This document shows, piece after piece, positions 2,754 through 33,375 of a stretch of 36,317 bases of DNA. How positions within the stretch are numbered: the stretch's first letter is position 1; each line of letters starts with the position of its first letter. The stretch spans positions 1 through 36,317 of the IMG/VR virus record IMGVR_UViG_3300038701_001412, one strand, 5' to 3'. The position numbers were made by a program, and so were the translations under genes. The notes beneath the pieces were generated by a model. It was not told the DNA's origin. It ran no database searches and saw only the letters and a program-made list of their open reading frames with translations. Source of the stretch: a virus.

Positions 2754-5700
2754 ATGGGCCTATTCTCTAAACCACTAGCACAACAAAATAATAAGGGGGT
2801 GGTTTTCAAGAAACCAACAAAAGCTACTGATGATCGAGGTTCTTTCTTGCGTAGAGCAGGAGGGTTTCTTGGTCGTGTTTTTGGTGGAAGTCCTGAAAAA
2901 AAGGAAGCTCGACAAGAGAGACGAGCAGACCGAAGAGAAAAAAAAGATCAAGAGGTTCAAGAATTTGTACAAAAAAGCCCAACGCTTTCATTTCTTCAAG
3001 AAAAAGTAGGCGAGCCTATGGTGCGGTTCAAAAAGAGATTAGATGAAAGTAATACTGAGGCCCGTGCACAGACTCCTGATCAGAGAAAAGAGTCACGACA
3101 AAAAGCCAAAGAGGCGACTGTGCGATTTTTCAAACCAGGAGAAAAGAAGAAGCTTGATACTCCTGATCCGGTGTTTGGGACAGAAAAAAGAGAAACTTCT
3201 CCTTTTGGGAAGGCTCTTGGTGCTCTTGGTCAAGAAGTCCTGAAAGGTGTTGGGCGTATTGCCGTGGGGCTTTCTGAGGTTGGGGAGCGTGGTGTTGTGA
3301 ATAAGATCACCGGAGAAAAAGGAACGCCTCGAACAGAAGCGTTTAGACAGAAGATTGTAGAGCCTGTGGTGGGATTTGGTGAGGAACTAAAATCTCCGCT
3401 AGATTTTGCACGAAAAATCCAAAAGGAAGTAGAAGATAGAGGGGCCAAAGGTGCAGAATCAAAACTTGTATTTACTGGATCATTGATCCTTTCGACTCTT
3501 TTTGAGTCTCCTATTGGTGGCCCCGGAAAGGCAGATGATCTATTTAGCTTTATATCAAAGACAGACGATGTAGCAAAAATTGAAGCTAGATTGATCAAAG
3601 AAGGTTTTGATGAAGCTACTTCTAAAACATACGCACGAGGACTTCAAAAAGTAGAGAATCCACAGGCGGTAGAAAACTTCTTCAAGAATAAGGTGGATCA
3701 GGCTGAGGAAGTGGTCAAAAGGATAGCACCTGAATCTAGCACAAAAAAGGTTGCCGACAATAAAAATCAAGACCTCTATGAAGAAGCTAAGAAGTATGAT
3801 AGTGCTGAGGAGTTCTATCAACAGAGTAAAAGTGATATAAAGGATGAACTGCGAAGTATGGGGATTAAAGGTGAGGAGCAGGTATCTAAGTGGTGGAATG
3901 AAAATGTTGGGAAAAGAGTAGATACTCTTGAAGGTGCTATGGATCACCGCCCTACAAAAACAGGAGCTACGGCTTCTGATATATCACAACAGGCCTCGGA
4001 CATGGGTATCCCTGATTTTTATGAGCGTCCAGAATACTATCACTTCGGAGGAAAAGAATACGATGAGAGTGTGTCGGCTTTGATGAAAATAAGAAATAAG
4101 CCCAATGCAGAAGTTACGATATACCGAGCTTCACCAAAAAATGAGCTTCGTAATGGTGACTGGGTCACACTATCTAAAGAAAAAGCAAGACTTGAAAGCT
4201 TGCAAGAAGGCACAGAAGTCCACTCATTCAAGGTAAAAGCAAAAGATGTCGAGTTTGCTGGCGATGATATAACAGAGTTTGGATATTGGGGAGATAGTAA
4301 AATCCCACCAAAAGAAATAAAAACACCTAGATTTCAAAAGTCTACAAAAGAAGCTGCTGATAACGCAGAATCACGCCTGAAGAAAGAATTTGAGGAAAAA
4401 CAAACAAAAATACGGCAGGCAAACCAGGCCCAAGAAGAAGCTCTCTTCCCAACAGAGGGGCGTGCTGATATCAAAGGTGCGGTAGAAAGAAAGCTCCAAC
4501 CTTTCAAATTCACAGAGCCAGAAGTAAAAAGTGCTTTTGAGGAATGGCAATCAAAGACACTTGCTTCACGAAGACTCGCTGATCAGGAGATCGAGAAGCT
4601 TGCAAAAGGTTTCCCGACAGACAAAGCAGAATCTTTCAAGGTGATCACTGACTACCAGAAGGGTGTACAAAATCAATTCACGCCTCAGATCAAGAAGGTG
4701 TTTGATGAGCTATACCAGGAGGCAAGGACAAGAGGGCTCGACGCAAACTATATTGAGAATTATCTTCCGCAAGTCTACAAAGAAAGCTCAGAGGAGGTGA
4801 TTGATAAGATCTCAAAGTACCTTGCAGATAAAGGGCTTTCTGCTGAAGAAATAAAAAACTACATACGAGGACGTGCGTTGCCAGCAAATACAGCAACAGC
4901 ACTGAAGCTACGACCTAATTTTACAAAGGAGCGTGTCTTTCCTAATTATGAGGTGGCGGCTAAATATGGCCTAACACCAAAATATCGACACCCTTCTCAG
5001 CTTGCCGCTTACTATCGAGAGGAAATGGAAAAGACTCTTGCAAATGTGAAATTTGTGGAAGATCTTGCCGGATCTGGGAAGATACTGAAGGCAGGTGACG
5101 CACCTAGAAACTGGAAGTCTTTGGACGCTCCATCGTTTGATGGGTACAAGGCACCTGAATATCTCTCAAAGATTATTGATGATCTCTTCACTAGAGAGGC
5201 TGGCCAGTTCAGTGTTAGAGACAGAATCGTAGAAGGTATTGCGAACCTATCAAAGCGAATGCAGGAGATCGCTCTTTCAGGAGGAGTCCCTCTGACAAAC
5301 ATAAACTTTTTCTCTATCGGGCAAACTATCAAAGAGATGACTAGAGGTAATTTCAAGGCGGTTTCCGCCTTCCTGAGAGCCAATTTCAATGAGAGAAGTA
5401 TCAAATACCTAAAGGATAATCAAAAGTACATGAAGATGATGGCTGAGGAAGGGATTGACCTTGGTGAGCATGTTGCTTCTTATTCAAGGACTTTTGACAC
5501 TCTAAAAGAAAAGCTGGATCCTACAAAGAAAAAAACATGGACAAACTTTTTTGGAGATAAGGGTGCTTTCGATACACTATTCAACGATAAAACTTTTTCA
5601 TCATTTATGCCGCAAATGCACACCCAGGTCTTCAAAGACACTTTTGAGGGCGCGGTGAAAAATGGACTAGCTGAAGCAGAGGCAAAAAAGATCGCTGCTG

Positions 5701-7223
5701 ATATAACAAAAAAGACATTTGGGCTTGTGGATCAGTGGGGACGGTCAAAAGGTACTCAGGACGTTATGTCCGCTACTTTCTTTGCCCCAAGGTTTCGTGA
5801 GGGTATATTGAATACACTTTTGAACACCGGAAAATCAGTCACAACTGAGCTGAGGAATCCAGCCTTCAAGAATAACCGGCGGTTGGCACTAGGTATGCTT
5901 GTTACATACGCAGGGTACAACGCCTTGAATAAACAGCTCAATGGTCACTACATGTGGGAAAACCCAAGTGGGAGACAGTTTGCCTTGAGAATCCCTATCG
6001 AAGAAGGGAAGGGCTCAATGTACATAGAATTTATGCCGTCTTTCCTTGCTTTTGGACGAAACTTAATCCAAGGAGCACTTGCTACGGCAAAGGGAAATGT
6101 AAAAGAAGCGGGACAGAAGTTCGGTTCTGTATTTTCAATGCCTGTGAAGCTTGTGTCTGAAGCACTCTCAAACAAAGACTATTTTGGACGTGAGATATAT
6201 GAAGAACAAGACTCTATTGGAACAAAAGCCTCAAAGGTTGCAGCTCATCTTGGACTTGCCGTTGCCCACCCATTTATCAAAGAATTTATAAAACAGCAAG
6301 GATGGGATAAAGGGAAACAGACACCAAAAGAAGAAAGGCCTCCAGTATATCAAGCCATGTTGCGAGCTATGGAGCTCCCAGTGAAATTTGGGGTGAAGGC
6401 AAAAGAAGACGCCGGAGAATACTACGACAATCTTGCTGAGGAACGAAAACAATCTGCAAGGGATCGAAAGAAGTATGAAAAGGTGCTCGATCAGATTATT
6501 GAAACACGAGACTCAGGAGACAAAGAAAAGGCTGAGGCTCTGTATGACGCTCTGACAAGCGAGGAGAAAAAGAAAATCAAAAATATCAGTCAAGCAAGAA
6601 AGACTCAGGAGACACGCCAGAGAAAGGTGGAGCTTTATAGTTTCTTGATTGACCTACGAGAAGCACGAGATCGAGGAGATCGTGAGATTGCTGAGGAGAT
6701 GTACTCATCTTTGAGTTTAGAAGACAAAAAGCTTCTGAAGAAAGTTTCGGAGGAGAATCCTGCGGAGCCAAAAGAAGAGGCGGAGCCGATTGAGGAAGGG
6801 ACTCTGTCAGAAGAAAAAGCGAAAAGTGAAATAATCAAATTTGCAAAAGCCTTTGGGGTGTCTCCGGTTGTTGCATTGAAAATCCTAATATCAAGAAACA
6901 AAATCGAATATGTGAAGGATGGTGTTGTAAAAGTAGAACGACTACCATTTAGAGGAGCAGATAGCTCTTCATGGATCCGAGCTGAAGGTGGTGCTGACAG
7001 CACTCTGAGACTCGATCACACAATCCCACTTCAATTGGGAGGTACAAATGCAGATAGGAACCTTGAGCTTGTTTCTGTGGAAGACTGGGCTTCTTACACG
7101 CCTGTTGAAAACGGATTGAGAAGGCAGATCCAAGATGGAAAAATTGGACTCATGAAAGCACGAAGTTTGATAAAGAAATTCAAGAAAGGAAAAATAACAG
7201 CCGAGGAGGCACTGGATAACTAA
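2754..7223 (+). CDS. Giant polyvalent virion/ejection protein with ART-like segment and C-terminal HNH nuclease
   Basis: The protein has 1,489 residues and is the largest in the genome. The N-terminus (1-130) is strongly basic and coiled. Residues ~340-520 contain 'YRASPKNEL', 'GDWVTLSKEKA' and 'DDITEFGYWG', spaced like the R/S/E signature of ADP-ribosyltransferase-type domains seen in large polyvalent phage proteins. This is a tentative match. A long helical region (~560-1130) resembles polyvalent-protein-associated segments and includes a hydrophobic stretch near 1040-1060. Two ~37-residue helical repeats follow (about 1240-1330, 'RDSGDKEKAEALYDALTSEE' and 'RDRGDREIAEEMYSSLSLED'). The last ~95 residues are a convincing HNH endonuclease, with D1421-H1422 in 'LDHTIPLQLGG' and then 'NLELVSVEDW'. 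In short-tailed phages such giants are packaged and ejected with the DNA. I infer that role, with nuclease or modifying activity on host targets. Confidence 0.7.
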   Translation: MGLFSKPLAQQNNKGVVFKKPTKATDDRGSFLRRAGGFLGRVFGGSPEKKEARQERRADRREKKDQEVQEFVQKSPTLSFLQEKVGEPMVRFKKRLDESNTEARAQTPDQRKESRQKAKEATVRFFKPGEKKKLDTPDPVFGTEKRETSPFGKALGALGQEVLKGVGRIAVGLSEVGERGVVNKITGEKGTPRTEAFRQKIVEPVVGFGEELKSPLDFARKIQKEVEDRGAKGAESKLVFTGSLILSTLFESPIGGPGKADDLFSFISKTDDVAKIEARLIKEGFDEATSKTYARGLQKVENPQAVENFFKNKVDQAEEVVKRIAPESSTKKVADNKNQDLYEEAKKYDSAEEFYQQSKSDIKDELRSMGIKGEEQVSKWWNENVGKRVDTLEGAMDHRPTKTGATASDISQQASDMGIPDFYERPEYYHFGGKEYDESVSALMKIRNKPNAEVTIYRASPKNELRNGDWVTLSKEKARLESLQEGTEVHSFKVKAKDVEFAGDDITEFGYWGDSKIPPKEIKTPRFQKSTKEAADNAESRLKKEFEEKQTKIRQANQAQEEALFPTEGRADIKGAVERKLQPFKFTEPEVKSAFEEWQSKTLASRRLADQEIEKLAKGFPTDKAESFKVITDYQKGVQNQFTPQIKKVFDELYQEARTRGLDANYIENYLPQVYKESSEEVIDKISKYLADKGLSAEEIKNYIRGRALPANTATALKLRPNFTKERVFPNYEVAAKYGLTPKYRHPSQLAAYYREEMEKTLANVKFVEDLAGSGKILKAGDAPRNWKSLDAPSFDGYKAPEYLSKIIDDLFTREAGQFSVRDRIVEGIANLSKRMQEIALSGGVPLTNINFFSIGQTIKEMTRGNFKAVSAFLRANFNERSIKYLKDNQKYMKMMAEEGIDLGEHVASYSRTFDTLKEKLDPTKKKTWTNFFGDKGAFDTLFNDKTFSSFMPQMHTQVFKDTFEGAVKNGLAEAEAKKIAADITKKTFGLVDQWGRSKGTQDVMSATFFAPRFREGILNTLLNTGKSVTTELRNPAFKNNRRLALGMLVTYAGYNALNKQLNGHYMWENPSGRQFALRIPIEEGKGSMYIEFMPSFLAFGRNLIQGALATAKGNVKEAGQKFGSVFSMPVKLVSEALSNKDYFGREIYEEQDSIGTKASKVAAHLGLAVAHPFIKEFIKQQGWDKGKQTPKEERPPVYQAMLRAMELPVKFGVKAKEDAGEYYDNLAEERKQSARDRKKYEKVLDQIIETRDSGDKEKAEALYDALTSEEKKKIKNISQARKTQETRQRKVELYSFLIDLREARDRGDREIAEEMYSSLSLEDKKLLKKVSEENPAEPKEEAEPIEEGTLSEEKAKSEIIKFAKAFGVSPVVALKILISRNKIEYVKDGVVKVERLPFRGADSSSWIRAEGGADSTLRLDHTIPLQLGGTNADRNLELVSVEDWASYTPVENGLRRQIQDGKIGLMKARSLIKKFKKGKITAEEALDN

Positions 7224-7403: not shown

Positions 7404-8741
7404 ATGTTTGAATTTCTAAAAAATCTATTGTTCCCAGAACAAGAACGAGGTACAGGAGCATTACTAAACCCGGTAGATCTCCGGGATATTCCTATATCTG
7501 CATTTCAAGATCCTGTAGAGGACATCCCTCGTACACACTTCACCAATGTCTCATTTTTGGACATAAACGACCAGAAGTCCACAGGAAGCTGCGTAGGGCA
7601 GGCAATGGCTAAGATGGTCGAATACTACGAATACACCAAGCACAAGCGAGATACAGACGTATCAGCACGCTTTATCTATGGAATGTCGAAGCTAACTGAT
7701 GGATATAGCGGATCAGGTACATATCCACGAAATGCAGCAAAGATACTCAAAAAATACGGTGCAGCTACCACAAACACATGCCCAGATGACGCAACAGGGA
7801 TGAATGATGAGCAATATCGGGATATTGGGCTAACGGGAGCAATGCTTTCTGACGCTATTCCAAGGAAAATAGAAGGGTATGCAAGTATAGATCTAACACC
7901 AGATGCTCTAAGGCAAGCGATATACAAGAATGGAGTGATCACAATTACTCTCCGAGTTGGAGACTGGAAGGGCGTAGAAGTCTATCCGTATCGTAAAAAT
8001 GGAGATCTTGGGCGGACTTTTCACTATGTAATGGTATACGGATATGATGAAGATGAGTTTCACTTCATGAATTCATGGGGAAAAGATCGGCATGAATCAG
8101 GAGAGGGAAGATTCTACTTTGGAGACTTTGTAGGACATATGCACGATGCACTGGTTTACACTGAAATCCCGGAAGATCTCTTGGAGAAAGTCGAGAACCA
8201 AGATTATGTATTTACTAGTTTTATGAAAATAGGCATGAGATCAGATGAAATAAAAGAGCTTCAGAAACGTCTAAATATAAAGCCTGTCGATGGAATATTT
8301 GGGCCAATCACAAAGAAAGCAGTGATTGAGTTTCAAAAGGCAAACGGTCTTTACCCTGACGGACTTGTCGGAAGGCGTACTAGATCGGTTCTGAACGGAG
8401 AAGAAAGCCCCTTGATATCAGCAATTATCGAGGTAGAATCCGGCGGCAAATTAAATGCGGTAGGCGATCTTCACCTTGAGGACAAAGCATATGGGCCTAT
8501 GCAGATCAGGCAACCGGCGGTAGATGATGTAAACAAAGCCAACGGTACTGACTACAAGGCTCAAGATATGCTTGGAAACAAAGAGCTTTCAATTTGGGTA
8601 TTCAATGAATATATGAAATTGTACGCTCAAAATGAATCACCAGAAGTGCAAGCACGAGTTTGGAACGGAGGACCTAACGGTCCCAACGTACGAGCAACCG
8701 AGGTATATTGGGAAAAAGTGAAGAAAGCACTTGGTCGATAA
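7404..8741 (+). CDS. Three-domain endolysin: papain-like peptidase, peptidoglycan-binding domain, lysozyme-like domain
   Basis: The protein has 445 residues and would degrade the cell wall at lysis. Residues ~20-260 are a C1 (papain-like) cysteine peptidase: 'NDQKSTGSCVGQA' gives Q57 and catalytic C63, 'FHYVMVYGY' gives H207, and 'MNSWGKD' gives N223. Residues ~272-332 are a PG_binding_1 domain ('MRSDEIKELQKRLNIKPVDG', ending 'GRRTRSVL'). Residues ~335-445 are a lysozyme/transglycosylase-like fold with the glutamate in 'IEVESGG' (E345) and then 'AYGPMQI', ending in 'VWNGGPNG'. There is no signal peptide, so it needs a holin; a holin-like gene follows. The combination should cut both peptide and glycan. 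A second, single-domain papain-like protein is encoded at 32482-33375. Confidence 0.85.
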   Translation: MFEFLKNLLFPEQERGTGALLNPVDLRDIPISAFQDPVEDIPRTHFTNVSFLDINDQKSTGSCVGQAMAKMVEYYEYTKHKRDTDVSARFIYGMSKLTDGYSGSGTYPRNAAKILKKYGAATTNTCPDDATGMNDEQYRDIGLTGAMLSDAIPRKIEGYASIDLTPDALRQAIYKNGVITITLRVGDWKGVEVYPYRKNGDLGRTFHYVMVYGYDEDEFHFMNSWGKDRHESGEGRFYFGDFVGHMHDALVYTEIPEDLLEKVENQDYVFTSFMKIGMRSDEIKELQKRLNIKPVDGIFGPITKKAVIEFQKANGLYPDGLVGRRTRSVLNGEESPLISAIIEVESGGKLNAVGDLHLEDKAYGPMQIRQPAVDDVNKANGTDYKAQDMLGNKELSIWVFNEYMKLYAQNESPEVQARVWNGGPNGPNVRATEVYWEKVKKALGR

Positions 8742-9978: not shown

Positions 9979-10012
9979 AAAAAGCCCACATTCTCACAGG
10001 ATCGGGCTTTTT
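9979..10012. terminator. Terminator hairpin, possibly bidirectional
   Basis: AAAAAGCCC (9979-9987) and GGGCTTTTT (10004-10012) form a 9-bp stem with a 16-nt loop. The right arm ends in a T tract, and the left arm gives a T tract on the opposite strand. The rusA promoter follows immediately. Confidence 0.75.
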
Positions 10013-10016
10013 GTTT

Positions 10017-10025
10017 TGTTATAAT
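10017..10025 (+). promoter_or_regulatory. Extended -10 promoter for rusA, leaderless
   Basis: TGTTATAAT ends 6 nt before the ATG at 10032, so transcription should start at or next to the start codon. There is no -35 box. It sits within the tail of the preceding terminator. Confidence 0.65.
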
Positions 10026-10031
10026 AAAAAC

Positions 10032-10421
10032 ATGAAATACATAGTACCTATAGCCCCGGTTCCAGCATCACGACCAAAAGTCACAAGGTGGAGTACTTAC
10101 TATCCAAAAATATACACTCAATTCAAAAAAGATATTGCTTTATGGGTACAGACTCAGGAGAAAACCTACCTCACAGGCCCAATTTCTATCTCTATCACGT
10201 TTTATATAAAGATCCCGGCCTCACTATCAAAAAAGAATAAAAAAGAGAGAGAGGGTACTTGGTGTACAAAAAACTATGATACCGACAATCTACAAAAAGC
10301 CCTGTACGATGGGATCAATGACTATCTGATCGAAGATGATCGGTTTATTGTCCACGTCAAAGATGTGAAAAAAATATGGTCTACAGATCCAAGAATCGAG
10401 TTTGAATTGAATAGTATTTAG
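10032..10421 (+). CDS. rusA: RusA-family Holliday junction resolvase
   Basis: The protein has 129 residues, the usual length for RusA. Residues 82-93 (YDTDNLQKALYD) carry the family signature: aspartates D83, D85 and D93 that bind the metal, plus K89. The N-terminal 'PVPASRPKV' is also typical. RusA dimers cut four-way DNA junctions, here resolving recombination or replication intermediates before packaging. A TTG at 10011 lies in frame but falls inside the -10 box region, so ATG 10032 is chosen. It leads the recombination and replication block that includes recT. Confidence 0.9.
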   Translation: MKYIVPIAPVPASRPKVTRWSTYYPKIYTQFKKDIALWVQTQEKTYLTGPISISITFYIKIPASLSKKNKKEREGTWCTKNYDTDNLQKALYDGINDYLIEDDRFIVHVKDVKKIWSTDPRIEFELNSI

Positions 10422-10754: not shown

Positions 10755-11642
10755 ATGTCAGAAAAAAGCCTAGTTTTACGGAACGAAACCGATCTCAAGA
10801 AGTTTCTTTTCGTGAATCACCAAAAACAAATAGAGAATTACTTTGGAGACAAAGACAAAGCAATGAAGTTTCTATCAGCTGTTGTGTCAGATACTCAGAG
10901 GAATCCAGCACTACTAGAATGTGAGCCACGATCACTTGTAAACAGTTACATGATCATGGCCGGATGTGGATTTATGCCGTCAGGCGTATCAGGAGAAGCG
11001 TACGTTTTACCCTATAACAACAACAAAAAGGTTGGAAACGAGTGGGTAAAAATAAAAGAAGCACAGTTCCAAATGGGATATCAAGGACTTGTGACTCTGT
11101 TCTATAAAGCCGGAGTGACAAAAATTACTTCAGGAATCGTCTACGAAAATGATGGAATTGAAATCACAAACGACGAGATAAAACACACTGTAGATCCAAA
11201 ACTTTCAAAGAAGGAACGAGGGGAAGCAATTGGTGCATATGTGATCGTTACTTTCAGAGGAGAGAAAATTGGAAAGTACATGAATGGGAAAGATATCCTT
11301 GCTCATGCACAGAAATTCTCAAAATCATACAAGCCGGATGGAAAGTTCTCACCATGGAATCCAGCAAATGATCCCGAGCTTACAATGTGGACGAAGACAG
11401 TTCTGAAACAACATTCAAAACTACTTCCAAAGAATGAGACAATAAACAATGCAATAGCCGCCGATAATCATGACTCAGTTATGTCAGATAGAATCGAAGC
11501 GGCCAAAAGGTCGAGCGAATCAATGAAAATGGGTAATCTGCTAGAACATGACAAAAACCAAAACCAAGACAAAGAAATTGACACAACGGACTCTCAAGAA
11601 GCTCCCGAAAGTCACCAAGAGCCAGCCGTCGAAGTCGAGTAA
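10755..11642 (+). CDS. recT: RecT-family single-strand annealing protein
   Basis: The protein has 295 residues. The core has the RecT/Bet superfamily pattern: 'MIMAGCGFMPSGVSGEAYVLPY', 'QFQMGYQGLVTLFYKAG', then 'YENDGIEITNDEI' and 'MWTKTVLKQHSKLLP'. These proteins bind single-stranded DNA and anneal complementary strands, working with a 5'-3' exonuclease during phage recombination. The partner here is the overlapping nuclease-FtsK fusion. The C-terminal ~50 residues are a disordered, acidic tail (Glu/Asp/Gln-rich). The last 95 nt also encode the basic start of the next protein in another frame. No Shine-Dalgarno site is visible. Confidence 0.93.
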   Translation: MSEKSLVLRNETDLKKFLFVNHQKQIENYFGDKDKAMKFLSAVVSDTQRNPALLECEPRSLVNSYMIMAGCGFMPSGVSGEAYVLPYNNNKKVGNEWVKIKEAQFQMGYQGLVTLFYKAGVTKITSGIVYENDGIEITNDEIKHTVDPKLSKKERGEAIGAYVIVTFRGEKIGKYMNGKDILAHAQKFSKSYKPDGKFSPWNPANDPELTMWTKTVLKQHSKLLPKNETINNAIAADNHDSVMSDRIEAAKRSSESMKMGNLLEHDKNQNQDKEIDTTDSQEAPESHQEPAVEVE

Positions 11643-13674
11643 AGAATTTCCGATAGACACTGTTTCATATTCAAAGCTCGTGAAGTTCTCTACAAATCCG
11701 ATAATGTTCAAAATTAGTGCAATCAATGGAGATCATATTGATACTGCCTATGGCGTATCAGGGCTTGTGGGTAGAGCCTTTCACACCGCAATGGAGGTTT
11801 ACTATGGTGGGTCAGATGTCCGGCCAATCAGTGATGAAGCAGACGCAATCAAGCAAGGGCTTGAGGCTGGAACAGAATATATCGACAACTACCCAGAGGG
11901 GTTCATAAACTTCACAACCCTAATTACTACAAAGCAAAAGGCGATAGAAAAGTTTGTATTTCTCTTCCAAAGCTATATCAAGGAGAAGGTCGAGGAAGGT
12001 GAGGTGATCGAAGTAGAAGACTCAATCAAAGAATCAATTGATGTTGAATGGAAGGGAAAGCAAATCAAGTTACCTATTCCACTTCGAGGATATATTGACA
12101 AGGTGTACTACGACAAAAACAAAGATCTTGCAATCCTGGACTACAAAACAGTCTCTCGCTTCTCTGATCCCGACAAGATAGATGGGGCAAAGATGTTGCA
12201 GGCCGTTGAATACTACTTTCTAGCATACGCAAAGTATGGGGTGCCGCCGAAATACATGATATTCTCAGAGGTGAAAATGTCTAAAAACAAAGACGGATCT
12301 CCTCAGACAAGAAATTACAAAGTGGTATACGAAGACAACGAGCTATTCTTTGATTTTTATTTCAGAATGTACTCAGATCTCATGCTTGCTCTAAATGGTG
12401 AAATGGTATTTGTGCCAAACATCCTCAGTCTTTTTGACAAGGAAGTAGCACTCATTGCCTACGTCCACAGACTCGATGAGCCGGAGAATGTTGCAAAGAG
12501 GATGAAGGAGCTTCAGGTGGAAAATATGACAGATCTATTGAAAGCAGAGCTACATAGTTCAAAATCAATGCAAACGTATATGGGAGCGTTAGAAAAGAAA
12601 TTCCAATCTTACAAATCACTAAATTATGAAAAGATGACAATACCAGAAAAAATCAAAACAAAACTTATGGAATTTGGAATCTTGGTAAACTTTGACTCAG
12701 ACATTGTAGGTCACTCAGTTACTCAATACAGGTTCACACCCTCAATTGGAGTAAAGATGAAGACAATAGAGGGGTATGTAAAAGACATCGAACAAGTAGT
12801 CGGAGTATCAGGAATCCGTATTCTAGCCCCTATTCCAAACACTTCTTTCGTAGGTTTTGAGATACCCAACGAGAATCGAACCTTTGTCGGTCCAGCTTCT
12901 CTTGGAAAGGATTTCAAAATTGCAGTCGGTGTAGACTTGATAGGAGAAACAAGAAAGTTTGATCTACGAGAGGCTCCTCACATGCTTGTGGCAGGTGCTA
13001 CCGGATCAGGAAAGTCTGTATTTATCAATAATGTGATCTCACAGCTACAAAACGTACCAAATGTAGAGCTACACCTCTTTGACCCCAAAGAAGTCGAATT
13101 GGCTCACTTTGAGGACACCCAGAGGGTAAAAGAGTACTCTTCAGACATTGAGAATATACATATTGCACTGACAAAGCTGGTGGATGAGATGAATTACAGA
13201 TATTCAAGGATGAAAAAGGAAGGGGTACGAAACATTGAAAAGTTCAGTGGACGTATGCCATACAAGTTTGTTGTGATTGACGAGTACGGAGATCTTATTG
13301 CAAGCAATTATGTGCAACGAAAAACTGTTTACACTGGACATGTTTTCACAAAAGGGCAAAAAGCAGGTGAAGAAGAGACACGAATTGAAGAAACAAATAT
13401 CTCAAAAGAGATCGAGAAAAACATACTATTGCTTGGACAAAAGGCCCGTGCAGCAGGTATTCACTTGATTATCTCTACTCAGAGGCCTTCTGTAGATATT
13501 GTTTCAGGGTCGATTAAAAACAACTTCCCTGTAAAAGCTGCTTTCCGAATGGCAAACAGCACAGACTCAATCGTGGCGATCAATCAGCCAGGAGCAGAGA
13601 CACTTCTTGGAAAAGGAGACATGCTATTCATAGCAGATAATGGGGTGGAGCGATTACAAGGTTTCAGCGAATAA
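11548..13674 (+). CDS. PD-(D/E)XK nuclease fused to FtsK/SpoIIIE DNA translocase
   Basis: The protein has 708 residues. Residues ~36-290 are a RecB/Cas4-type nuclease: 'SYSKL' start, G75-xxx-H79, D184 in 'RGYIDKV', D198-Y-K200 in 'ILDYKT' and Q218-xxx-Y222. No Fe-S cysteines are seen. Residues ~383-445 match the FtsK beta domain ('VTQYRFTPSIGVKM', 'ILAPIP'). Residues ~450-705 are the FtsK motor: Walker A GATGSGKS (483-490), Walker B FVVIDEYGDL (574-583), 'STQRPSVDIV' (643-652) and 'GKGDMLFI'. It stops at the end of the motor, with no gamma DNA-recognition domain and no membrane domain. I infer an ATP-driven end-resecting nuclease that supplies single strands to RecT. The first 32 residues overlap recT; the SYSKL motif at residue 40 requires a start inside recT. 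Confidence 0.88.
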   Translation: MTKTKTKTKKLTQRTLKKLPKVTKSQPSKSSKEFPIDTVSYSKLVKFSTNPIMFKISAINGDHIDTAYGVSGLVGRAFHTAMEVYYGGSDVRPISDEADAIKQGLEAGTEYIDNYPEGFINFTTLITTKQKAIEKFVFLFQSYIKEKVEEGEVIEVEDSIKESIDVEWKGKQIKLPIPLRGYIDKVYYDKNKDLAILDYKTVSRFSDPDKIDGAKMLQAVEYYFLAYAKYGVPPKYMIFSEVKMSKNKDGSPQTRNYKVVYEDNELFFDFYFRMYSDLMLALNGEMVFVPNILSLFDKEVALIAYVHRLDEPENVAKRMKELQVENMTDLLKAELHSSKSMQTYMGALEKKFQSYKSLNYEKMTIPEKIKTKLMEFGILVNFDSDIVGHSVTQYRFTPSIGVKMKTIEGYVKDIEQVVGVSGIRILAPIPNTSFVGFEIPNENRTFVGPASLGKDFKIAVGVDLIGETRKFDLREAPHMLVAGATGSGKSVFINNVISQLQNVPNVELHLFDPKEVELAHFEDTQRVKEYSSDIENIHIALTKLVDEMNYRYSRMKKEGVRNIEKFSGRMPYKFVVIDEYGDLIASNYVQRKTVYTGHVFTKGQKAGEEETRIEETNISKEIEKNILLLGQKARAAGIHLIISTQRPSVDIVSGSIKNNFPVKAAFRMANSTDSIVAINQPGAETLLGKGDMLFIADNGVERLQGFSE

Positions 13675-13678
13675 TAAT

Positions 13679-14497
13679 ATGTCAAGAAGAATGTTCAGTG
13701 AAGATATAGTTACCTCTGACGCTTTCTTAGATATGCCTCATGACGCCCAATTACTCTATTTCATGCTCAATATGCACGCAGACGATGACGGCTTCGTAGC
13801 AAGTCCAAAATCTATAAAGCGAATGTGTGGGGCCTCAGATGACGCTGCAAAGATACTTGTAGCAAAGAAATTCCTTCTGATGTTCAATACCGGACTTTGT
13901 GTGATTAAACATTGGAGAATAAACAATCAAATCAGAAAAGACAGATACACAGAAACGAAATATACAGCAGAAAAATCGAAGCTATATATCAGGAAAAATG
14001 GGGTATATTCTTTCAATGAAAAAGGGGCAATACCTGTGCCAAGTGGACACTTTTCACTTGTGGATAAACACTGGTTGCCAGTACGGCAACCCAGTATAGG
14101 TAAGGATAGTATAGTAAAGAATAATAAGGGGGGGTCTGAGATAGATACACCAACATGGCTGGACAAGGAGACGTGGAGTGAGTGGGTTCAGTACCGAAAA
14201 GAATTGAAGAAGAAATTGACACCAACGACGATCAAGAGACAGATCAAACTTTTGGAGAATTATAAAAAAGATCATAAAAAGATCATAATTCAGTCGATAA
14301 GAAACGGATGGACAGGTCTATTCCCTCTCAAAGATGTTGCTGACGTGCCCAAAAGTGGGTCCAGGAGCGACAAAGCCCGTGCATATGAGAAAAGACTCGA
14401 GGCGGAGAAGGAAGAGCAGTTACGGAGCGAAAATGAGGCTCACAACGAAGCCCTGCGAGGGGTGAAGGAATTATCAAGTAAGTTCAAAATTTCATGA
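13679..14497 (+). CDS. Phage replisome organiser / replication initiation protein
   Basis: The protein has 272 residues. The start 'MSRRMFSEDIVTSDAFLDMP' with 'ADDDGFVASPKSIKRMCGAS' is characteristic of the N-terminal domain of phage replisome organiser proteins, a winged-helix origin-binding module. After a Gly/Asn-rich linker (~residue 145), the segment 'WSEWVQYRKELKKKLTPTTI' through 'NGWTGLFP' matches the DnaD-like C-terminal part of such proteins. It probably binds the phage origin and recruits host helicase loader or helicase. No phage polymerase or helicase is seen, so the host replisome must be used. ATG 13679 is preferred because it follows TAA-T and begins the conserved motif; in-frame codon 13640 lies inside the previous gene. 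It overlaps the next gene as ATGA. Confidence 0.8.
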   Translation: MSRRMFSEDIVTSDAFLDMPHDAQLLYFMLNMHADDDGFVASPKSIKRMCGASDDAAKILVAKKFLLMFNTGLCVIKHWRINNQIRKDRYTETKYTAEKSKLYIRKNGVYSFNEKGAIPVPSGHFSLVDKHWLPVRQPSIGKDSIVKNNKGGSEIDTPTWLDKETWSEWVQYRKELKKKLTPTTIKRQIKLLENYKKDHKKIIIQSIRNGWTGLFPLKDVADVPKSGSRSDKARAYEKRLEAEKEEQLRSENEAHNEALRGVKELSSKFKIS

Positions 14498-19483: not shown

Positions 19484-19768
19484 ATGCCCTTGGAAGAAAT
19501 AAAAAACCAAGAATTAAATAAACAGAAACGTATCTATAAAGGGTTTTTACAAAAAGCACTGGAGCAAAGGTACAAAGACCAGAAAGAGAATCTTGCGTAT
19601 TCCCCACCAGCAGATATTCAAGTGAATAAGGTGTACGTTGTTAGCCCTGAGAAAGCTTTTGAAATATTAAATAAAACTCTTCCGTCTTTTGAGGGGATGA
19701 CAAAAGTCCTTAGACAAGGATATGTAGGAGAATTAGACGACACGCAATATGCCGATAATCAAGATTAA
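19484..19768 (+). CDS. Protein of unknown function upstream of TerL
   Basis: The protein has 94 residues. A charged N-terminal helix ('EIKNQELNKQKRIYKGFLQK') precedes a short mixed region with 'VYVVSPEKAFEILN'. ATG 19484 follows TAA-T. It overlaps the terminase large subunit gene by 20 nt, suggesting coupling. Confidence 0.5.
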   Translation: MPLEEIKNQELNKQKRIYKGFLQKALEQRYKDQKENLAYSPPADIQVNKVYVVSPEKAFEILNKTLPSFEGMTKVLRQGYVGELDDTQYADNQD

Positions 19769-21128
19769 ATACAAACCAAGAAACTGGGCGAAACTACTGC
19801 ACAATACAGCAAAGAAGCTGATTGTGCTTGTTTTGCATAGACGTGCCGGGAAGACTACCGCAGCTATCAATCACCTGAATAGAGACGCTCTAAGAACCGC
19901 AAAGACAAAGTACGCCTACGTTGCCCCTACCTACAAGCAAGCGAAGCGTATTGTTTGGGATATGATCAAGGAATACACCAAGAGTGTTCCAGGGATCAAG
20001 TACAACGAGAGTGAATTGAAGGTATATTACCCTAACGGCTCGACTTTGATGGTAGTAGGATCTGATAACCCGGACTCACTTCGTGGAATTGGACTACATG
20101 GAGCCTTTTGTGATGAGTATGCACAGCAGAACCCTATTATCTTTACAGAGATTCTTTCAAAGTGTGTGGCTGATACCGGGGGATATATCATCTTTGGAGC
20201 TACACCAAAGGGGAAGGGGCCTTTTTACAAGGTCTACCAGGTAGCAAAGGATGATGAGGATTGGCTTTGTATCTACAAAACCATTGACCAAAGCCTCAAA
20301 GAAGAGTCGGGAGAGGTGATAGAACACCTTAAAAACGCTCTTGAAAGGGATAAAAAGCTCGTAAAGCAAGGAATTATGACCGAGGATGAGTTCCAGCAGG
20401 AGTGGTACAACTCGTTTGAAGCCTCTCTGAAGGGTGCGGTATACCTCAAAGAGCTTGCGAAAGCCAGAGAAGATGGACGAATTGGTATGGCTCCGTATGA
20501 TCCAGGACAGCCCGTGTACACCGTTTGGGATCTTGGAATCAATGACGCTATGGCTATTGGGTTCTACCAACACATTGGAGGGACGCCAAGAATGATTGAT
20601 TACTACGAGAACACAGGGCTTGGATTACCTCACTATGCAAAGGTGATCAAAGAGAAGCCTTATGTCTACGGTAAACACTTTGCTCCGCATGATATAAACC
20701 AAAGGGAGCTATCTACCGGGAAGACCAGGCTTGATAGTGCAAAGAAGCTGGGGATTGATTTTGAAGTTATACCTGGAGTTTCATTGGTGGATGGAATTGA
20801 TCAAGGGCGAAGATTCTTCTATACCTTGTATATTGACTCAAAGAAGTGCCAAGGCTTCCTGGATCTGATTGGAATGTATCAATACAAAAAGGATGAGAAT
20901 ACTGGTATACTTTCAAACAAGCCTATTCACGACCATACCTCACACGCCGCAGACGTCCACAGATACGCTTCATTGGTAGAAGACCAGATGAGAACCGATG
21001 AGCCGGTAATAGATCCTCCTGACGACGATTATGACTTCTACGATGAATATAAGGGTACTGAAGACCCGGATGATGACGGTCAAAGAAGACATCCCATGCT
21101 CAAAGGAGTAGATTTGGGGAAAATGTAG
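19749..21128 (+). CDS. terL: Terminase large subunit (packaging ATPase and nuclease)
   Basis: The protein has 459 residues. It pumps DNA into the prohead and cuts concatemers. Walker A is 'HRRAGKTT' (30-37), the short classic form. Walker B is 'GAFCDEYAQ' with D122 and E123. The coupling motif is 'GATPKG' (150-155). The RNase-H-like nuclease domain starts at ~255, with 'VWDLGINDAMAIGFY' (D261, D266) and late acidic/His residues in 'HDHTSHAADVHRY'. The C-terminal tail is acidic and ends before a promoter for the portal. Circular closure of the sequence fits either headful or cos packaging, and the motifs do not decide. Confidence 0.93.
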   Translation: MPIIKIKYKPRNWAKLLHNTAKKLIVLVLHRRAGKTTAAINHLNRDALRTAKTKYAYVAPTYKQAKRIVWDMIKEYTKSVPGIKYNESELKVYYPNGSTLMVVGSDNPDSLRGIGLHGAFCDEYAQQNPIIFTEILSKCVADTGGYIIFGATPKGKGPFYKVYQVAKDDEDWLCIYKTIDQSLKEESGEVIEHLKNALERDKKLVKQGIMTEDEFQQEWYNSFEASLKGAVYLKELAKAREDGRIGMAPYDPGQPVYTVWDLGINDAMAIGFYQHIGGTPRMIDYYENTGLGLPHYAKVIKEKPYVYGKHFAPHDINQRELSTGKTRLDSAKKLGIDFEVIPGVSLVDGIDQGRRFFYTLYIDSKKCQGFLDLIGMYQYKKDENTGILSNKPIHDHTSHAADVHRYASLVEDQMRTDEPVIDPPDDDYDFYDEYKGTEDPDDDGQRRHPMLKGVDLGKM

Positions 21129-32481: not shown

Positions 32482-33375
32482 ATGAAAAAGAAGAAAATAA
32501 AAATTGGAGGAGGATTACAATCGCTACCAAAGGATGAGCGAGATTTTGAGTATGAAAAGGTGTTCGGTGCTATTGCCCCGGAGTTTCCTGAGTCTCTTAT
32601 AGTTTCTGCTCCTTTGAGTATTAAGGATCAAGGGGCGACTGATTTTTGTACCGCATATGCAGTCACTTCTGTTTCAGAAGATCAAGAGAAGATTGATCTA
32701 AACCCTCACTACAATTTCAAATGTACACGACTTATTGACGGAAAAGACGTCAAAGAGTGGGGAGCAAATCTCCGGGACGCCTGCAAGGCTATTGTAAAAT
32801 ATGGATCTATTGAGGAGCAATACTACCCCTTCCCAAGCAAAGACCAAGAAAAAGACAGAGATTTTATCGCAGATCCTAAAAACTGGCCTGATACGCTAGA
32901 GCATTTTGCATGGGAACACGCAAAGAACTCTTTTTTCAGGGTAGATCAAGGGTCATTTGACACTTTTGATAATCTACGAACAGCCTTGATGATGAATAAA
33001 GACAAGGAGCGGAGTATCGTTACAGGGTGTGACTGGTACAATTCTTGGACTAATTCAAAGAAGGGTGTTGTTTCAAGCAAAAAACCAACAAGCCCTGTAG
33101 GGGGACACGCCTTCAAGATCTTTGGTTTCTTAAAGATTGAAGATACGGATTACCTTGTGGCCCAACTTTCAAACGGTACTGATATTGGAGATCAAGGTAT
33201 CTTCTATTTCCCACGAAAAATCGTGAATGAATATTTCACATATGGAGCATTTATGTTCCATGACATGCCAAGAGACAAGGCAGAACTTTATACAAACGCT
33301 GGCGTGACTGTGAATGATTCAATGTTCAAACGAATGGTGAAACTTATTACTTACATAATCAAAAACGCAATATGA
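32482..33375 (+). CDS. Papain-like (C1) cysteine peptidase
   Basis: The protein has 297 residues. 'IKDQGATDFCTAYAVTSVSE' gives oxyanion Q50 and catalytic C56, 'PVGGHAFKIFGFL' gives H209, and 'AQLSNGTDIGDQGIFYFP' gives N231 in place of the usual NSWG. There is no signal peptide; the end is an amphipathic helix. It shares the fold of the endolysin's first domain but lacks wall-binding and lysozyme-like parts. It could be a tail-associated lysin or a second lysis enzyme. The stop overlaps the connector start (ATGA). Confidence 0.75.
   Translation: MKKKKIKIGGGLQSLPKDERDFEYEKVFGAIAPEFPESLIVSAPLSIKDQGATDFCTAYAVTSVSEDQEKIDLNPHYNFKCTRLIDGKDVKEWGANLRDACKAIVKYGSIEEQYYPFPSKDQEKDRDFIADPKNWPDTLEHFAWEHAKNSFFRVDQGSFDTFDNLRTALMMNKDKERSIVTGCDWYNSWTNSKKGVVSSKKPTSPVGGHAFKIFGFLKIEDTDYLVAQLSNGTDIGDQGIFYFPRKIVNEYFTYGAFMFHDMPRDKAELYTNAGVTVNDSMFKRMVKLITYIIKNAI

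Follow-up and report, generated by a model that had tools for sequence, protein, structure and literature searches.

The window analysed here, the full 36,317 bases of one virus record, encodes a terminase large subunit, an SU10-type portal and an adaptor, and contains a recombination module in which the frame of a nuclease–FtsK fusion protein begins inside the end of recT, the gene of a single-strand annealing protein (SSAP; Table 1). A gene for a RusA-type Holliday junction resolvase lies upstream in the same module, and the replication module starts downstream with a DnaD-like helicase loader. Elsewhere in the window, pos. 7404-8741 encode an endolysin-like protein with a papain-type C1 peptidase, a peptidoglycan-binding domain and an SLT transglycosylase, pos. 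32482-33375 encode a second C1 peptidase, and pos. 2754-7223 encode a 1489-aa protein with one PHROG match ('ParB C-terminal domain', residues 347-516) and no Pfam match.

Table 1 Features of the recombination locus and the terminase gene in the window
Feature	Position	Strand	Basis
RusA-type Holliday junction resolvase, same recombination module, upstream	10011..10421	+	PF05866 E 6e-26
recT, single-strand annealing protein (SSAP), fusion partner	10755..11642	+	Pfam RecT E 7.5e-29; PHROG 148 E 8e-47; TIGR00616 above cut-off
Overlap of recT end and fusion start, 95 bases	11548..11642	+	
Nuclease–FtsK fusion gene	11548..13674	+	708 aa; full-length relatives in ~105 other contigs
PD-(D/E)XK (RecB/Cas4-type) nuclease domain, residues 39-253	11662..12306	+	PDDEXK_1 PF12705
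FtsK alpha domain, residues 363-441	12634..12870	+	PF17854 E 1.1e-14
FtsK beta (RecA-like) motor, residues 456-708	12913..13671	+	PF01580
Walker A GATGSGKS, residues 483-490	12994..13017	+	
Walker B VVIDEYGD, residues 575-582	13270..13293	+	
DnaD-like helicase loader, start of replication module, downstream	13640..14497	+	PHROG 5708 E 6e-57
Terminase large subunit	19749-21128		

The initial annotation had described one unbroken frame joining a nuclease to an FtsK motor, and this was borne out: the 708-aa frame has no internal stop and both of its halves were recognized by Pfam. The RecB/Cas4-type nuclease comes first and is followed by the FtsK alpha domain and then the beta motor. Profile searches placed PDDEXK_1 at residues 39-253 (E 3.7e-12, 47 bits against a cut-off of 22), FtsK_alpha at 363-441 and FtsK_SpoIIIE at 456-649 (E 1.1e-30), and the FtsK match of the fusion by profile reached E 5e-76; the nuclease had its best matches among phage exonuclease families (phrog_1218, E 8e-12). 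The catalytic residues named in the same annotation (H79, D184, D198, K200, Q218 and Y222), together with the GATGSGKS and VVIDEYGD motifs, were all found in place. Its layout of a nuclease plus a motor also stood, with the refinement that the part connecting the two is the FtsK alpha domain and that the chain extends no further than the beta domain and has no gamma domain. Neither the membrane segment nor the gamma winged helix of FtsK was detected in the fusion by Pfam or in its sequence; the nuclease occupies the N-terminal part, and the end of the motor is the end of the chain. The whole protein contains no cysteine, and the nuclease is therefore of the cluster-free type, lacking the AddB/Cas4-style four-cysteine 4Fe-4S cluster.

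The overlap of recT and the fusion gene recurs, at 32-143 bases, in most relatives within the clade that includes the window (hereafter the near clade). No clear Shine-Dalgarno sequence was seen before the fusion ATG; the start cannot be moved beyond residue 39, because S40 and S42 are invariant. The N-terminus of the fusion, encoded within the recT end (pos. 11548-11642), is K/R-rich and carries a conserved LPK[VI] motif, and an MGNL-like stretch is common near the end of near-clade RecTs, just ahead of the overlap that encodes this N-terminus.

Relatives, conservation and predicted fold

The same unbroken arrangement of domains recurs in about 105 other contigs, at identities down to 24%, which excludes an assembly join as well as the missed stop or frameshift between the domains that had been marked for checking. 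Iterated profile scans yielded 62 distinct contigs and a later scan added 43, whereas scanning viral contigs with the fusion as a single sequence returned no matches, the patterns being too specific. Occurrence of the same fusion beside recT in other viral genomes, also left for checking by the initial annotation, was first seen in L006, a contig found by a scan with the neighbouring RecT; just after its recT, a 709-residue protein matched both halves and aligned with the window fusion over its full length at 26% identity. This phage record contained no match to the window terminase.

Comparison of the aligned full-length fusions revealed complete identity, in 57 of 57, at G75, H79, E157, D184, D198 and K200 of the nuclease and at G486, G488, K489, D512 and E579 of the motor; Q218 was kept in 56 and Y222 in 52. 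Two copies had unusual structures. The copy in L082 (IMGVR_UViG_3300006483_000020, pos. 3784-6687) is 967 aa long and contains an intein-like insertion in Walker A (GATG-C...HN-SGKS), with the C at the start and the HN at the end that are features of inteins; Walker A is a common site of inteins in essential ATPases. The copy at L079:2104-4213 is split near Walker B into two overlapping frames of 566 and 145 aa, reflecting a frameshift or a sequencing error in this one contig.

Structure prediction of the monomer gave both a nuclease and a motor fold. A first model, based on 4 sequences, reached a pLDDT of 52.6 and was set aside as poor; the model of the window fusion built with 57 relatives had a mean pLDDT of 87.3 and a pTM of 0.54. 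The nuclease core and the motor were mostly at a pLDDT of ~90 or higher (~90 over residues 40-280), and the linker at 300-360 was badly predicted, so that with this pTM the model does not define where the nuclease sits with respect to the ring. Superposition of residues 362-708 and 2ius, the E. coli FtsK motor, gave Z 37.2 and an rmsd of 2.0 over 316 residues, and the model also matched the DNA-bound FtsK motors 6t8b and 6t8o. The nuclease fold, judged within the full-length model, was supported by Foldseek matches in the PDB to the Cas4-family ACE1 nucleases 9iac/9iab (E 3e-7) and by matches to many viral PD-(D/E)XK proteins.

The fusion was absent from the annotated phage records and the plasmid records searched. 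Among 50,697 phage records, none covered 80% of the fusion with any of three different queries, tblastn of the nuclease half against the 50,697 phages gave no matches, and plasmid records held no full-length match. FtsK matches in gut 'Bacteriophage sp.' and Listeria phage records were rejected as relatives, since these proteins have long N-terminal membrane parts and a gamma domain and look like contamination by bacterial chromosomal FtsK. One near-clade fusion with recT, L028 (LCJG01000046.1), comes from a metagenome bin assigned to Candidatus Collierbacteria and hints that this phage group may infect Patescibacteria, although the assignment may be a binning artefact; 286 sampled Patescibacteria genomes, beyond the starting genome, yielded three weak matches, two of which were stand-alone frames of ~300 aa. 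A search of the literature on FtsK with nuclease, RecT or annealing found no description of the architecture; the 2004 survey of the FtsK-HerA superfamily fell outside its scope, and an earlier mention there is possible. Within these collections and this literature, the results agree with the earlier statement that no phage recombination system of this build had been described.

Annealing-protein partners and their C-terminal tail

A gene of SSAP type lies directly upstream of the fusion in nearly all of the ~105 contigs, and its family varies. Among the 19 relatives of the near clade, the gene directly upstream encodes a phrog_148-type RecT in 16, a Bet-like protein of the RecT superfamily in two and a weak RecT match in one. 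The same slot in the larger, divergent clade is occupied by RecT, Bet-like, Erf (PF04404, E 2e-20), Rad52 (PF04098, E 3e-8), Sak4-like (phrog_1366/124), phrog_3657 and phrog_15333 proteins, and by one group without a family match. The SSAP family changed at least 20 times on the fusion tree, a quick tree in which 25 of 54 inner branches are well supported, and even very closely related fusions can have different partners (L075/L084, L076/L085 and L027/L056). The constant position of the nuclease next to annealing proteins with unrelated folds is most readily accounted for if it is their functional partner.

Several slot proteins belong to families without an assigned function. The phrog_3657 family recurs in the slot with the tail described below (L027:5123-5935, L061:7132-7947 and others), and some of its mycobacteriophage homologues are annotated 'RecT-like ssDNA binding'. 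One group (L056:3457-4200, L066:3-734, L071:840-1559 and L075:7248-8000) had no PHROG match, and the slot protein at L074:3350-4060 matched phrog_15333, a family lacking a functional assignment. By position and tail alone, phrog_3657 is a candidate for an unrecognized annealing-protein family, and the L056 group and phrog_15333 are likely to represent new ones.

In every one of these families, divergent-clade SSAPs finish with a short charged segment and then [LM]P. The last two residues were [LMIV]P in 31 of 41 fusion-linked SSAPs of this clade, and position -2 was L or M in 39 of the 41. As controls, we used 77 RecT homologues, ~48-72% identical to the query, that stand beside other genes in the slot of the fusion, many of which resemble YqaJ-type nucleases; one of them ended in [LMIV]P. 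When the comparison was restricted to RecT, the tail was present in 9/13 fusion-linked proteins versus the same 1/77. The rule was then applied to a fresh sample of 43 new contigs, 42 of which had an upstream partner (one without a family match): 30 of the 42 partners ended in [LMIV]P, and the remainder mostly in LL, LM, ML or LA. The Fisher p value for the tail (1e-18) overstates the evidence, the sequences being related; the partner exchanges and the second sample lend the tail further support.

Two trivial origins of this ending were rejected. It is not a by-product of an ATGA gene overlap, since many loci have no such overlap and the tail is kept where a gene or a gap parts the SSAP from the fusion (L054, L070 and L076). 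Nor is it general to these RecTs, given its frequency in the control homologues and its absence from all 12 RecT, Sak4-like and phrog_3657 SSAPs examined in reference phages and gut phages. The gene at L070:7489-8016, between the annealing protein and the fusion, is of HNH type (homing-endonuclease-like), as judged from its sequence by eye.

Analysis of SSAPs in the near clade revealed the tail in 1 of 19, and the window RecT itself is without [LM]P; the recurrent MGNL-like stretch stands near the end of these RecTs in place of the tail, perhaps as a contact site. In Red and RecET, the C-terminal domain of the SSAP contacts the exonuclease and partners are not exchangeable (PMC5052646), whereas the fusion family has taken up many SSAP families. 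A common tail would explain how exchange of partners became possible, and in the larger clade the [LM]P tail probably lets SSAPs dock interchangeably on the nuclease–motor. This docking idea is weaker for the window phage, whose RecT does not have the tail.

Comparison with known systems and proposed working

The arrangement resembles SynExo pairs (RecE/RecT, Red alpha/Red beta, and YqaJ or DUF3799 with RecT), in which a gene for a PD-(D/E)XK-type nuclease likewise adjoins an SSAP gene in the phage early region. Known SynExo nucleases are motor-free, however, whereas that of the fusion has a built-in FtsK motor, and a survey of Firmicutes SSAPs listed YqaJ, DUF3799, RecE and others as partners, and no FtsK. 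Phage FtsK-like translocases (phrog_1358; mycobacteriophages and Bacillus phages) are ~35% identical to the motor half, but the match stops before the nuclease. The alpha and beta motor is common to the fusion and FtsK/SpoIIIE, from which the fusion differs in having an N-terminal nuclease and neither membrane domain nor gamma winged helix. RecBCD and AddAB also combine an ATP motor and a PD-(D/E)XK nuclease in one complex for end resection, as proposed here; they are driven by SF1 helicases, which unwind single strands, and have no FtsK motor.

In its proposed working the fusion resembles the HerA-NurA end-resection complex of archaea and Deinococcus, in which a hexameric ring of the HerA/FtsK family translocates, feeds the DNA end to a nuclease and leaves a 3' tail (PMC9960219); a hexameric double-strand pump coupled to a nuclease that makes 3' tails is what the fusion is predicted to be. 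The two systems differ in build, HerA-NurA consisting of two proteins, HerA with a HAS barrel and a dimeric NurA of another nuclease family, and the fusion of one chain. They also differ in setting, the former standing beside Mre11-Rad50 and the latter in phages beside an SSAP. The fusion is not itself of HerA-NurA type, for its best profile and fold matches are to FtsK and it has the FtsK alpha domain. By analogy, it could be described as a SynExo pair with a HerA-NurA-like engine, which should encircle a duplex end and, powered by ATP hydrolysis, translocate while it digests one strand and hands on the other to the annealing protein.

We consider it likely that the fusion is an ATP-driven end-resection nuclease that provides the exonuclease in a two-component (SynExo-type) phage recombinase, with a predicted activity, hexameric state, direction, strand choice and docking. 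The motor domains would form a hexamer round double-stranded DNA at a break or at a replicated phage end, and ATP hydrolysis would move the ring along the duplex or reel the duplex in, as the intact FtsK alpha/beta motor suggests. The RecB/Cas4-type domains, with their invariant active site, would degrade one strand. A 5'-3' polarity, which is not readable from sequence, is expected because SSAPs need 3' tails. The remaining single strand would be passed to the annealing protein encoded upstream, RecT in the window, which would anneal it to a homologous strand. With the membrane and gamma domains of FtsK lost, there would be no septum anchoring and no reading of KOPS, and translocation should therefore not depend on sequence. 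Docking of the SSAP on the nuclease–motor would, in the larger clade, go through the [LM]P tail, so that one SSAP could be exchanged for another. The idea put forward in the initial annotation, that a nuclease mounted on a double-strand pump resects ends to supply RecT, thus proved the best supported, by the profiles, the structure model and an SSAP pairing conserved even where RecT has been replaced.

A broader version of the resection model, which we regard as evenly balanced between right and wrong, is that six nuclease domains ride on a hexameric pump of FtsK type, to which any SSAP can attach by a short common C-terminal peptide with a final [LM]P. Such a pump would serve RecT/Bet, Erf, Rad52 and Sak4-like proteins, and would expose at least three further SSAP families so far lacking a functional assignment (phrog_3657, phrog_15333 and the L056/L066/L071/L075 group).

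Degrading host DNA, aiding packaging and stripping proteins are possible roles, but they account less well for the exchange of SSAP partners. A pump-nuclease directed against host or competing phage DNA, with adjacency to recT reflecting the clustering of early genes, would fit the recurrence of HerA/FtsK translocases in defence systems (PMC12839542) and the scores of the motor half against the SspH, mad8 and HerA defence models of PADLOC. These scores come from a generic motor alone, with no sensor or modification partner present, and membership of a defence system was rejected for this reason. General clustering, moreover, does not predict that an annealing-type neighbour is kept across ~105 contigs despite at least 20 changes of family, and the tail common to the SSAPs argues for a physical partnership. 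We therefore regard such a weapon as very unlikely, and the earlier side idea of host DNA degradation found no support. Equally improbable is a helper of replication or packaging, in which the pump serves to clear or segregate concatemers or to bring them to the terminase while the nuclease trims ends and recombination is secondary. FtsK-family pumps do segregate and deliver DNA, and the downstream gene encodes a helicase loader, but a terminase large subunit and a portal are encoded in the window itself, and the fusion is paired with annealing-protein genes and not with packaging genes. Least probable is a translocase that strips or remodels SSAP or host proteins on DNA without processive digestion, its nuclease acting as an occasional flap or junction endonuclease: nothing speaks for it directly, although processivity, like polarity, is not readable from sequence; the nearby RusA already supplies a junction cutter, and the nuclease best matches phage exonuclease families, as the phrog_1218 match indicates.

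Returning to end resection, the fusion architecture and its pairing with annealing-protein genes point to a kind of phage DNA repair and recombination machine that has not been described. Two-component recombinases of phages underlie recombineering, and to our knowledge the nucleases of phage recombinases are known only as motor-free, partner-specific enzymes. If the fusion is indeed a processive motor–nuclease, phages would have combined FtsK and RecB-type parts into a resection machine of their own that resembles HerA-NurA. An exchangeable SSAP with a common tail would make testable the long-standing question of what pairs a nuclease with an annealing protein, and a portable docking peptide, together with the candidate annealing proteins, may be of use for genome engineering in bacteria that are without such tools.
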